Shown piece by piece: positions 31,622 through 40,336 of a DNA stretch of 64,000 nucleotides. Made by a program: the position numbers and the translations under genes. Source of the DNA: Mucilaginibacter gilvus (GTDB taxonomy: Bacteria; Bacteroidota; Bacteroidia; Sphingobacteriales; Sphingobacteriaceae); assembly GCF_004054195.1 (NCBI RefSeq), contig NZ_SBIW01000001.1:248001-312000 (forward strand), written 5' to 3'. Within the stretch, counting starts at the first letter, position 1. Each line of letters opens with the position of its first letter. Below the pieces are notes generated by a model. The model did no database searches and was not told where the DNA came from. It saw only the letters and a program-made list of their open reading frames with translations.

Positions 31622-31650
31622 ATTCTTCGGATGCAATGATAGTAAAAAAG

Positions 31651-31740
31651 TTCATAGTTCATAGATGATGGTTCATAGTTCATAAAAAGTTAATAGCGTA
31701 TAGCCGCTTCGGCCATGAACTATCAACTATGAGCCATCAA
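31651..31740. repeat. Inverted 7-base-period element
   Basis: The left arm 31651-31685 is five 7-base units (mainly TTCATAG). The right arm 31713-31740 is four units (CCATGAA, CTATCAA, CTATGAG, CCATCAA) in the opposite sense. The spacer of 27 bases holds an imperfect stem. It separates the XRE gene from the MBL-rhodanese gene, both on the minus strand. Confidence 0.75.
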
Positions 31741-34124: not shown

Positions 34125-36827
34125 ATGATCATTGCTAAAACATATTCCCCCAAAGAAGCCGAAGAAAAATGGTACAGTTACTGGTTGCAACACAATTTTT
34201 TTCGCTCGGTGCCCGATGAGCGCGAGCCTTACACTATTGTGATCCCTCCGCCAAACGTTACCGGCGTGCTGCACATGGGGCATATGCTAAACAATACCAT
34301 ACAGGATGTACTCATCCGCCGTGCCCGCATGAAGGGAAAGAACGCCTGCTGGGTACCTGGTACAGATCACGCAAGCATCGCTACCGAAGCCAAAGTTGTG
34401 GCCATGCTCAAAGAGCGCGGCATCAATAAAAAAGACCTTACCCGCGAGGAGTTTTTAAAATACGCCTGGGAGTGGAAAGAAAAATACGGCGGCATTATAC
34501 TGGAGCAACTAAAGAAACTCGGAGCATCATGCGATTGGGAACGCACCAAGTTCACCATGGACGAAGATATGAGCGAAGCAGTTATAGACTATTTTGTTCG
34601 CCTGCACAAACAAGGGCTGATATACCGCGGTGTACGTATGGTTAACTGGGACCCGCAAAGCAAAACCGCCGTAAGCGATGAAGAAGTAAACCGCAAAGAA
34701 GTAAACCAGAAGTTGTATTACATTAAGTATCAAGTAGCAAGTAGCAAGTATCAAGATAATGCCGACGAATCTACTGAGCAGTCTAACGACTTGATACTTG
34801 ATACTAAATACTTAACCGTAGCCACCACCCGCCCCGAAACCATTATGGCGGATGCGGCAATATGTGTAAACCCTAATGATGAACGCTACCTGCACCTGCA
34901 TGGCAAAAGCGTGTTTATCCCGCTTATTAACCGCGAGATCCCGGTGATACTGGACGAATATGTTACCATGGATTTTGGTACAGGTTGCCTAAAGGTTACC
35001 CCGGCACATGATCTGAACGATTACGCTCTTGGCCAAAAACACAATCTGCCCATCATTGATATTTTGAACGATGATGGTACCCTAAACGATAAAGCACAGA
35101 TCCTGGTTGGCGAAGATCGCTTTGCTGCCCGGAAAAAAATCGCGGTATTATTGGAAGAAGCCGGAGCACTGGCTAAAACAGAAGATTATGCCTCGCAAAT
35201 AGGCTTTAGCGAACGCACCAACGCCGTTATCGAGCCAAAACTTTCGATGCAATGGTTCTGCAAAATGCAGGAAATGGCCAAACCGGCGCTTGATTATGTT
35301 TTGAATGGAGAGGTAAAGCTGATCCCCGAAAAGTTCATCAACACCTACCGCCACTGGATGGAAAACGTGCGCGACTGGAACATAAGTCGCCAATTGTGGT
35401 GGGGGCAGCAGATCCCGGCCTACTACCTGCCAAACGGCGAATACATGGTTGCCAAAACGATTGAAGAAGCGTTGGACGAAGCTAAACTCAAAACTCAAAA
35501 CCCAAAACTCACCACTGCTGATTTAAGGCAGGAAGACGATGTATTGGATACCTGGTTCTCATCGGGCCTGTGGCCGATATCGGTTTTTGATGGTGTGCGT
35601 AACCCGGATAATGCCGAGATAAGCTACTACTACCCTACCAACGATTTGGTTACCGCTCCCGAGATCTTGTTCTTCTGGGTGGCCAGGATGATCATGTCGG
35701 GCCATGAGTTGCGCGGGCAAAAGCCGTTTACCAATGTGTATCTAACCGGTATTGTGAGGGATAAACAGGGCCGCAAAATGTCTAAATCATTGGGCAATTC
35801 CCCCGACCCTATTGAACTAATGGCCAAATACGGGGCTGATGGCGTACGTGTGGGTATGCTGCTATGCTCCCCTGCCGGTAACGACCTCATGTTCGATGAA
35901 AGCTACTGCGAACAGGGCCGAAACTTCGCCAATAAAATATGGAACGCCTTTAAACTGATCCAGGGATGGGCGGTTGATGAGAGCCTTACTAACACCAACC
36001 AGATAGCCATAGAGTGGTTTGATAGCCGCTTTAACCAGGCGCTGGCGCAGATAGAGGACGACTTTAAACAATACCGTTTATCGGAAGCTCTGATGGCCAC
36101 CTATAAGCTGGTTTGGGACGACTACTGCGCCTGGTACCTGGAGATGGTGAAGCCCGTTTACAAAGCCGGTGCCGAAAAACAAAGCATCGATGCGGAAACC
36201 TACGCGGCTACCATCAACTTCTTTCAAAACATCTTAAAAGTACTCCATCCGTTTATGCCATTTCTTACCGAGGAGCTATGGCATGATGAACTGTTTGGCG
36301 AGAGAGACGAACTCGATTGCTGCATTGTGGCACAATTGCCCGCACTTGGGGAAATCAATTCCCAGTTAATTTCCGAGATTGAAATTATCCAGCAAGTTGT
36401 TACCCAGGTTCGTAACGTGCGGAACGCCAAACAATTATCGCCAAAAGAGGCTCTGCCACTCGCGGTAAAAACAAACTCGGCTATCAATTATGTTAAACAT
36501 CAACCCATTATTAAACATTTGGGGAATATTAACGATGTGAGCCTGGTTAACGAAGCGCTTGGTGGCGCTGTAAACTTTATTGCAGGCACCGATGAATTCT
36601 ACATTGCTTTGAATATAGAAATTGATGTAGCGGCAGAATGTGAGCGCCTGAAAAAAGAGCAGGAATATCTCCTGGGCTTTTTAAAATCGGTTAGTGCAAA
36701 ATTGGGCAACGAACGTTTTATGGCTAACGCAAAACCCGATATTATAGATAATGAACTGAAGAAGAAAGCGGATGCAGAATCGAAATTAAAAACAGTAGAA
36801 GACAACCTAAGAAGCTTGGCTTGCTAA
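34125..36827 (+). CDS. valS: Valyl-tRNA synthetase
   Basis: Charges tRNA-Val. Class I motifs are present: HMGH at residues 50-53 in NVTGVLHMGHMLNN and KMSKS at 551-555. The editing (CP1) domain includes LTVATTRPETIMADAAICVNP. The anticodon-binding domain and C-terminal coiled coil (AECERLKKEQEYL) complete 900 residues. Two oddities lie inside the gene. Residues about 201-230 are encoded by an inverted 7-base-period element and appear as an extra Ser/Asp-rich segment before the editing motif. Residues about 454-463 are encoded by a second 7-base-period array. Both keep the frame. ATG 34125 is preferred over the TTG nine bases upstream. Confidence 0.96.
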   Translation: MIIAKTYSPKEAEEKWYSYWLQHNFFRSVPDEREPYTIVIPPPNVTGVLHMGHMLNNTIQDVLIRRARMKGKNACWVPGTDHASIATEAKVVAMLKERGINKKDLTREEFLKYAWEWKEKYGGIILEQLKKLGASCDWERTKFTMDEDMSEAVIDYFVRLHKQGLIYRGVRMVNWDPQSKTAVSDEEVNRKEVNQKLYYIKYQVASSKYQDNADESTEQSNDLILDTKYLTVATTRPETIMADAAICVNPNDERYLHLHGKSVFIPLINREIPVILDEYVTMDFGTGCLKVTPAHDLNDYALGQKHNLPIIDILNDDGTLNDKAQILVGEDRFAARKKIAVLLEEAGALAKTEDYASQIGFSERTNAVIEPKLSMQWFCKMQEMAKPALDYVLNGEVKLIPEKFINTYRHWMENVRDWNISRQLWWGQQIPAYYLPNGEYMVAKTIEEALDEAKLKTQNPKLTTADLRQEDDVLDTWFSSGLWPISVFDGVRNPDNAEISYYYPTNDLVTAPEILFFWVARMIMSGHELRGQKPFTNVYLTGIVRDKQGRKMSKSLGNSPDPIELMAKYGADGVRVGMLLCSPAGNDLMFDESYCEQGRNFANKIWNAFKLIQGWAVDESLTNTNQIAIEWFDSRFNQALAQIEDDFKQYRLSEALMATYKLVWDDYCAWYLEMVKPVYKAGAEKQSIDAETYAATINFFQNILKVLHPFMPFLTEELWHDELFGERDELDCCIVAQLPALGEINSQLISEIEIIQQVVTQVRNVRNAKQLSPKEALPLAVKTNSAINYVKHQPIIKHLGNINDVSLVNEALGGAVNFIAGTDEFYIALNIEIDVAAECERLKKEQEYLLGFLKSVSAKLGNERFMANAKPDIIDNELKKKADAESKLKTVEDNLRSLAC
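34725..34813. repeat. Inverted 7-base-period element inside valS
   Basis: The left arm 34725-34759 is five 7-base units (AAGTATC, AAGTAGC, AAGTAGC, AAGTATC, AAGATAA). The right arm 34789-34813 is ACTTGAT twice, ACTAAAT and ACTT, the reverse-complement type. A 29-base spacer lies between. The whole is translated in frame within valS, where other synthetases have only a few residues before the editing motif, so it reads as an in-frame insertion. Confidence 0.8.
35484..35511. repeat. Second 7-base-period array inside valS
   Basis: Four consecutive 7-base units, AAACTCA, AAACTCA, AAACCCA, AAACTCA, encode AKLKTQNPKLT. This stretch aligns without an obvious insertion to AK.KTGN..LT in related synthetases, so it may be drift or local slippage rather than an inserted element. 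Confidence 0.55.
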
Positions 36828-38735: not shown

Positions 38736-39194
38736 CTACAATTCTTTATAAGAAGGCAATTCCTCTAAAAAGCGATAACTTTCCTGCTCGAAATCTATGC
38801 TGCAATAGTAATGCTGTAGTCCGTTAGTTACAACCAGCAGTTTCACTTTGTGTACCATATTATAACGCGCGGCCTGGTCGAAAGTAGCCTGGCTGATGGC
38901 CACCGACGGCGCTTTACACTCCACCAATAAAACCTTCTGGCCCGACGAATTGTACACCACGATATCCGACCGTTTGGCCATCCCGTGCAGTTTCAGCCCG
39001 CCTTCCAGCTTAATAAGTGATTTTGGGTAATGCTTTTGCTTGATGAGGTACTGTACAAAATGCTGACGCACCCATTCCTCTGGGGTGAGAATGATCTTCC
39101 GTTTCCGCAATTCATCAAACACGCTCAACTGTCCGTTATCATCGGTAAGCTTAAAAGGGTATGGCGGAAGATTGAGCGGGAGTAACAAATCCAT
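38736..39194 (-). CDS. HsdR N-terminal-like nuclease domain protein
   Basis: A 152-residue protein matching the type I restriction R-protein N-terminal family (HSDR_N_2): RKRKIILTPEEWVRQHFVQYLIKQKHYPKSLIKLEGGLKLHGMAKRSDIVVYNSSGQKVLLVECKAP. The D...ECK pattern (SDIVVY, then VECKAP) is the PD-(D/E)xK nuclease core. No hsdM or hsdS gene and no motor domain are present, so this is the solitary form found next to holA in many Bacteroidota rather than a restriction system. Its start is eight bases from a TACTTTTG box in a shared divergent element. Confidence 0.88.
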   Translation of the reverse strand: MDLLLPLNLPPYPFKLTDDNGQLSVFDELRKRKIILTPEEWVRQHFVQYLIKQKHYPKSLIKLEGGLKLHGMAKRSDIVVYNSSGQKVLLVECKAPSVAISQATFDQAARYNMVHKVKLLVVTNGLQHYYCSIDFEQESYRFLEELPSYKEL

Positions 39195-39198
39195 TATT

Positions 39199-39308
39199 AA
39201 GTCAAAAGTAAAAATTCAAAATTCAAAAACCTGCATAGGCGTATTCTCAACAATAGTTTATTATCCACATTAAGGAATTTTTCACTTTTTACTTTTTACT
39301 TTTGACTT
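39199..39308. promoter_or_regulatory. Inverted 7-base-period element forming a divergent promoter region
   Basis: Left arm 39199-39226 (AAGTCAA, AAGTAAA, AATTCAA, AATTCAA) and right arm 39281-39308 (TTCACTT, TTTACTT, TTTACTT, TTGACTT) face each other. Each arm contains TACTTTTG, a perfect -7 box, pointing outward. On the plus strand it is at 39297-39304, nine bases before the holA ATG. On the minus strand it is at 39210-39203, eight bases before the HsdR_N ATG. The element fills nearly the whole gap between the two genes, so it is the likely source of both promoters. Confidence 0.65.
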
Positions 39309-39313
39309 ACCAC

Positions 39314-40336
39314 ATGACTGCTCCCGAAATTATAAAAGACCTTAAGGCCCGCAAATTTAAGCCACTGTACCTGTTGCACGGGGAGGAGCCTTATTTTATT
39401 GACCTGGTGAGCAACTACATCGAGCATAAAGTATTGTCTGATGCCGAGAAGGGCTTTAACCAAACGGTACTGTACGGCAAAGATACCGATGTGATGACGG
39501 CCATTAACGCGGCCAAGCGCTACCCCATGATGAGCGATTACCAGGTAGTAATGGTAAAAGAGGCGCAGGATATGAAATGGGGCCGTGATGACGAGGATAA
39601 GAAAAGCATTAACCCGCTCCTCGCCTACCTGGAAAACCCGCTGCCAAGCACTATACTGGTATTTTGCTACAAATACGGCAAGTTTGATAAGCGCAAAAAA
39701 ACATATAAGGCCATAGATAAGAACGGGCTGATATTTGAGTCGGCAACGTTGTACGACAGCAAGATCCCCGCCTGGATAGAGGGTTACATCACCGAAAAGA
39801 AATACAAGATCAGCGGGCAGGCATCAGCCATGCTATCCGAATACCTGGGTAACGATCTCTCTAAAATTGCCAACGAGCTGGATAAGCTGATGCTGAACGT
39901 TAGCGCCGGCGAGGAAATTACCCTGAAGCACATCCAGGATAATATTGGCATCAGCAAGGAGTACAACGTTTTTGAGCTGCAATCGGCATTAACCAAAAAG
40001 GATGCCTATAAGGTGAACCAGATTGTAAATTACTTTGAGGCCAACCCCAAGGCTAACCCCATCGTATTGGTTTTAGGCAACCTGAACAACTTTTTCAGTA
40101 AGGTGCTGGCTTATCATTACATTAAGGATAAGTCGCCGCAGAGCCTTGCGCGCGAGCTTGGCGTGAGCCCCTACTTTGTAAAGGATTACGAACAGGCGGC
40201 CCGTGGGTACAGCCTGGGCAAAACCTTCCAGGTGATCAGCTACCTGCGCGAGTACGACCTTAAAAGCAAAGGCGTAGAATCAAACACCGGCCACGGTGGT
40301 TTGATGAAAGAGCTGATGTTTAAGATATTGCATTGA
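39314..40336 (+). CDS. holA: DNA polymerase III subunit delta
   Basis: Clamp-loader subunit that opens the sliding clamp. The 340-residue protein begins MTAPEIIKDLKARKFKPLYLLHGEEPYFIDLVSNYI, followed by NQTVLYGKDTDVMTAINAAKRYPMMSDYQVVMVKEAQ, the AAA+-like domain of HolA without a Walker A. The C-terminal collar has NIGISKEYNVFELQSALTKKD and VLGNLNNFFSKVL. ATG 39314 gives the standard start; an upstream in-frame TTG at 39302 lies within the repeat arm. Its promoter appears to be supplied by that repeat. Confidence 0.94.
   Translation: MTAPEIIKDLKARKFKPLYLLHGEEPYFIDLVSNYIEHKVLSDAEKGFNQTVLYGKDTDVMTAINAAKRYPMMSDYQVVMVKEAQDMKWGRDDEDKKSINPLLAYLENPLPSTILVFCYKYGKFDKRKKTYKAIDKNGLIFESATLYDSKIPAWIEGYITEKKYKISGQASAMLSEYLGNDLSKIANELDKLMLNVSAGEEITLKHIQDNIGISKEYNVFELQSALTKKDAYKVNQIVNYFEANPKANPIVLVLGNLNNFFSKVLAYHYIKDKSPQSLARELGVSPYFVKDYEQAARGYSLGKTFQVISYLREYDLKSKGVESNTGHGGLMKELMFKILH

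Follow-up and report, generated by a model that had tools for sequence, protein, structure and literature searches.

The 64,000-nt stretch of Mucilaginibacter DNA analysed here (the window) carries holA, the gene for the DNA polymerase III delta subunit, next to a divergent gene for a small HSDR_N_2-domain protein (Table 1). The closest named relatives are Mucilaginibacter species. holA is present in 147 of 150 genomes of the genus, and the HSDR_N_2 gene is its divergent neighbour in nearly all species compared. The gap between the two genes (39195-39313) contains an inverted repeat of 110 bases, whose two 32-nt arms face each other, are 88% complementary in an inverted repeat search, and stand 48 nt apart.

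Table 1. Coordinates of the two divergent genes and of features in the gap between them
Feature	Position	Strand	Remarks
HSDR_N_2-domain protein gene, 152 aa	38736..39194	-	PF13588, E 4e-40; start codon at 39194
Predicted transcription start, HSDR_N_2 gene	39198	-	A; would give a 4-nt leader, AATA; placed by F. johnsoniae spacing
Left heptad arm	39198..39229	-	outward reading TTTTTGAATTTTGAATTTTTACTTTTGACTTA; inverted repeat I1; TRF period 7
Predicted -7 box TACTTTTG, HSDR_N_2 gene	39203..39210	-	8 nt before ATG; 23/60 species
Loop between arms	39230..39277	.	own-genome DNA search with whole gap
TTATCCACA in loop	39261..39269	+	44 nt before holA ATG; possible operator
Right heptad arm	39278..39309	+	outward reading TTTTTCACTTTTTACTTTTTACTTTTGACTTA; inverted repeat I1; TRF period 7
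Predicted -7 box TACTTTTG, holA	39297..39304	+	9 nt before ATG; conserved genus-wide
Predicted transcription start, holA	39309	+	A; would give a 5-nt leader, ACCAC; placed by F. johnsoniae G-5 spacing
holA, DNA polymerase III delta subunit, 340 aa	39314..40336	+	PF06144, E 7e-18; PF21694, E 1e-6; start codon at 39314

The original prediction had described facing arms that each carry TACTTTTG, a perfect -7 consensus, on both strands, and this is borne out by the inverted repeat and by exact copies of the longer sequence TACTTTTGACTT, which includes TACTTTTG and occurs in the window solely at 39199-39210 (-) and 39297-39308 (+). The distances of 8 and 9 nt between box and ATG were likewise as predicted when the coordinates were checked. 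The arms are indeed inverted and built of heptads, but the unit and limits given for them (AAGTCAA-AAGTAAA, 39199-39308) required correction. Read outward, the arm is better given as (TTTTGAA)n-TTTTTAC-TTTTGAC-TTA, and it is one base longer on each side, the outermost paired bases being T39198 and A39309. The unit order of the left arm is that of the consensus of 42 copies found elsewhere in the genus.

The loop has no second copy in its own genome, where a DNA search with the whole gap matched only arms at other places. Folding prediction for the RNA of the gap gives z-scores of -4.7 (+) and -3.9 (-). The motif TTATCCACA in the loop may be an operator; roughly half of the closest genomes, this one included, have a TCCACA-containing motif of this kind (TTTCCACA, TATTCCACA or TATCCACA in relatives) at 39-45 nt from the start codon of holA. 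Its count in this genome (16, versus 11.9 expected) is about that of chance. Regulation by DnaA through this motif was considered and rejected, both for this reason and because a DnaA box is replaced by TTTCCACA or TATTCCACA in many close species.

Conservation of the -7 box at the two genes

Among 68 Mucilaginibacter genomes, 50 have TAHHTTTG or TAnnTTGY at 3-12 nt ahead of the holA start codon, and many of these 50 show little or no heptad repetition (in this and the other conservation counts, the species and orthologues are related and hence not independent). Across these 68 loci, the distances from TAHHTTTG to the ATG cluster at 5-11 nt, and a few species have no box in range. The box is also kept in 30 of the 38 holA loci scored as lacking strong arrays of heptads in the final 45 nt, a set in which some loci retain degenerate heptads, and heptad-free species place boxes such as TAATTTGC equally far from the ATG. 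In an earlier set, 39 of 50 holA loci had a box within 14 nt, compared with 1.6 in shuffles.

The HSDR_N_2 side is less conserved, the 23 species in Table 1 being those with TAHHTTTG at 3-14 nt, and several species that lack heptads there show a YATTTTCGC-like motif near the ATG. In the sister genome G087, whose holA is 97% identical, different heptads occupy the same place and TACTTTTG is 24 nt from the ATG. Four distant species (L099, L104, L106, and L109) have a divergent gap of only 53-69 bp, which is heptad-free and close to a minimal divergent promoter.

Near boxes at other gene starts

The genome sample comprised 1.22 Mb plus all loci that match the arm pattern. Within the 1.22 Mb, 699 gene starts, taken from a simple ORF picker and having more than 60 bp upstream, include 25 that are preceded by TAHHTTTG at 3-12 nt, whereas none of the 622 gene ends that served as a control, likewise read outward, has it in this range (Fisher p about 1e-7). 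Similarly, 20-kb stretches around holA in 20 relatives have the motif in this range at 50 of 222 starts versus 0 of 150 ends, a count that includes holA itself and is drawn from related species. Most of the 25 starts with a near box are without heptads, and together with the absence at gene ends this points to a class of near-leaderless promoters in this genome, within whose range both boxes of the holA gap fall.

For instance, at the divergent pair C25:127562/127691, which is without heptads, the boxes stand 5 and 8 nt away from the two start codons. The symmetry of the box-to-ATG distances, which had been thought striking, is therefore not special to the heptad element.

Heptad arms across the genome and genus

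The 16-mer TTTTTACTTTTGACTT has 133 copies in the 150 genomes of the genus. Thirty-seven of these are in the holA gap, spread over 31 genomes out of the 61 in which the 16-mer occurs anywhere; 23 aim at holA and 14, including the copy in this genome, at the HSDR_N_2 gene. Period-7 arrays occur in the holA gap of 25 of 68 species, versus 38 of the 692 gaps of this genome. The 42 copies elsewhere have the consensus TTTTGAATTTTGAATTTTTACTTTTGACTTA, and the next base, the predicted +1, is A in 67% of them. Seventeen are paired with an inverted copy that lies up to 260 nt away and differs by no more than 4 mismatches in 18, while shuffled controls have none. As for their orientation, 28 aim at a start, nine at a stop, and five lie inside an ORF; this preference for starts has a p of 0.005 against equal ends, but orthologues recur among the copies, and with independent families counted (about a dozen versus eight) it is not significant. 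The genes downstream belong to recurring families, often with the box 4-12 nt from the ATG, among them three unrelated ones: a TsaB-like family, a four-species family of 284 aa, and an FAD-dependent oxidoreductase-like family.

In this genome, extragenic arms of this type end at gene boundaries and read outward. On a single list of arms, with starts from the simple ORF picker, the distance between arm end and codon is -7 to 9 nt for 14 of 18 arms on the stop side and for 6 of 12 on the start side; tight abutting is thus a property of the arms. On the same list, TAHHTTTG is held by 7 of 12 start-side arms versus 3 of 18 stop-side arms (p 0.045). Additionally, a separate, canonical box of the TATCTTTGC type accompanies the heptad arm seen in rpsO of relatives, and likewise the one near guaA. 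The broader proposal that heptad arms in general act as promoters is thus not supported, as arms abut stops at least as closely as starts and few stop-side arms have the box. Since arms abut stop codons at least as tightly, mostly without a box, and may merely flank a separate canonical box, the symmetric 8- and 9-nt spacing in the holA gap needs nothing beyond abutting arms and an ordinary near-leaderless promoter, from which it is expected.

Heptads of various kinds are present elsewhere. In the window, period 7 has the most arrays of any period from 4 to 13, and in the 1.22 Mb of the genome, period 7 and its double, 14, stand out at stricter thresholds. Arrays with different units (CCATAGT/ACTATGG, AGTTCAT) lie at 305-324, 699-729, and 31649-31684, and the genome has further heptad families with the units AGTGGTG and AAATCCG. 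In-frame heptad tracts occur in valS at 34722-34815 and 35484-35511; in the valS loop that holds the first of these, other Mucilaginibacter carry stretches that differ in sequence and length, some of them heptad-like, and in others the stretch is short. One relative has a long TTTTGAC array, a strong local expansion of the same heptad (G043:C6:407358-407445, L204-L217). Exact ACTTTTNACTTTTNACTT is found at few loci in relatives (none in G010, none in G004, and one in G087), and its scarcity speaks against recent amplification in these three genomes. The heptads have the look of repeats that are gained, lost, and altered wherever the sequence is permissive. A literature search on heptad repeats in Mucilaginibacter found nothing specific.

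A predicted divergent promoter and its alternatives

Taken from the sequence comparisons above, the gap is probably a divergent promoter region, with outward TACTTTTG boxes in the outermost heptads, near-leaderless mRNAs, an old position, and heptads as filler. The outermost heptad of each arm would provide the -7 box of the Bacteroidota housekeeping sigma factor, reading outward, and transcription would begin on the terminal A of each arm. The start in F. johnsoniae lies 4-5 nt past the -7 element, whose last base is at -5 (PMC6847099), so that the figure of 5-7 bases in the original prediction was corrected to 4-5 nt. As the predicted +1 is the outermost base of the arm, the arms would be untranscribed, T-rich promoter DNA, and the mRNAs would be near-leaderless. 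Heptad repeats, which recur in the gaps and permissive loops of these genomes, would fill the space behind the promoter, and selection appears to hold the -7 box in the outermost register.

Two-way promoter activity is likely for holA, where the box is conserved genus-wide and its position belongs to the class enriched at gene starts, and somewhat less likely for the HSDR_N_2 gene, where fewer species keep the box; the reading is well supported for the former and moderately for the latter. TTTG at the usual -33 spacing, about 19-21 nt upstream of the -7 box, is absent from both strands when read from the sequence: the minus strand has TTTG only 6 and 13 nt upstream of the box, and the plus strand has none. 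This is a weak criterion, because F. johnsoniae promoters are reported to show scarcely any -33 element either (PMC6847099). A scan for sigma-70 -35/-10 elements yielded nothing. Short leaders are a minority elsewhere, with leaders of at most 10 nt in 13% of cases in F. johnsoniae (PMC6847099), leaderless mRNAs at 5.5% in F. psychrophilum (PMC9723704), and 5' UTRs under 10 nt at 3.7% in B. thetaiotaomicron (PMC7366714).

Several other explanations were weighed. One that can be entertained tentatively is that arms of the form given above are a distinct, selectively kept near-leaderless promoter module, in which the T-rich 7-nt period matters for strength or regulation, and which is retained at recurring genes (holA and the three families named above) and renewed by repeat turnover. 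Alternatively, the arms could be neutral, gap-filling repeat DNA in which TACTTTTG is a by-product of the TTTTKAC unit, with the true promoters elsewhere or weak. The box does arise whenever TTTTTAC precedes TTTTGAC, and neutrality would also fit both the arms that abut stop codons in this genome at least as closely as starts and the rpsO and guaA arms that accompany a separate promoter. However, species throughout the genus keep the box at 3-12 nt from the holA start codon whether or not they have heptads, most stop-side arms are without it, and the gap offers no better box between arm and ATG; we therefore consider this reading unlikely.

It is less probable still that a MITE-like mobile heptad element with outward arm promoters entered this gap by insertion and established the transcription of the two genes. 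The inverted arms, the unit order common to dispersed arms over loci and species, and the inverted partners of the other copies are features that such an element would have, and there is a precedent in the Porphyromonas MITE BrickBuilt, which drives outward transcription in reporter tests in E. coli (PMC4596501). Nevertheless, of the features that define MITEs, the gap has terminal inverted repeats and lacks both a conserved internal sequence and a target-site duplication: the copies have no common loop, and the flanks, CCATTAT and CCACATG, read as unduplicated. Moreover, the site is stable genus-wide, with a promoter-like box in the same place in species without strong heptads, and the same valS loop holds different stretches in different species. 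No empty site was found, the arm-free gaps of the four distant species being too diverged to be called such. The earlier suggestion that such elements might bring promoters with them is thus not borne out, as the arms at this site recur throughout the genus with changing units and loops, and those of the sister species are made of different heptads. Nothing found favours recent movement, and the comparisons indicate that the promoter position is old and fixed in Mucilaginibacter, not brought by a mobile element.

Finally, it is highly improbable that the inverted arms are mainly a binding site or hairpin (for a dimeric regulator, a terminator, or a cruciform) common to both genes: the length and complementarity of the arms, the predicted fold, and the fixed distance of the TCCACA-containing motif from the holA ATG, in this genome as in others, would suit such a role, but the hairpin would be in neither mRNA if transcription starts at the arm ends, many species have lost or replaced the pairing of the arms and still keep the -7 box, an Rfam search gave no match, and the sole nearby terminator-like match is inside holA and at chance level. 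A hairpin or terminator in the transcript was likewise rejected, as the arms are outside the predicted transcripts and the terminator scan was at chance level.

Discussion

The divergent promoters predicted here resemble those of the Bacteroidota housekeeping sigma factor, sigma ABfr (PMC6847099, PMC9723704, PMC7366714), in their perfect -7 TAHHTTTG on both strands, T-rich upstream DNA, and A at the predicted +1. They differ in their predicted leaders of 4-5 nt, a minority class in those studies, in a box that lies in a period-7 repeat, and in having no -33 TTTG at normal spacing. BrickBuilt of Porphyromonas gingivalis (PMC4596501) comes nearest as a Bacteroidota repeat with promoters that face outward; it shares the inverted ends and the outward promoter activity that is predicted here. 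The holA-gap element is not a member of that family: BrickBuilt has 23-nt units with a conserved leader and tail, whereas here the unit is 7 nt, the loops are unrelated, and no signs of mobility were found. Tandem heptamers beside start codons are also known as the TAACTGA repeats of Beggiatoaceae, cyanobacteria, and some Bacteroidetes, which in the BOGUAY genome are mostly no more than several nt away from a start codon (PMC4679880). In contrast to these, the repeats described here have the units TTTTGAA, TTTTTAC, and TTTTGAC (TTTTKAC/TTTTGAA), form inverted pairs, and are found at stop codons as well. Post-transcriptional regulation has been proposed for the TAACTGA repeats (PMC4679880); such a role would not apply here if the arms are untranscribed.

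The holA gap would thus represent a variant of Bacteroidota housekeeping promoters that is overlaid on heptad repeats. If this reading is correct, holA and other housekeeping genes would have their promoters in repeats that annotation ignores, and a class of near-leaderless mRNAs would be conserved in a phylum whose mRNAs are without Shine-Dalgarno sites. The holA gap would then also be a clean case of a fast-turning repeat that is kept in register by one functional box.
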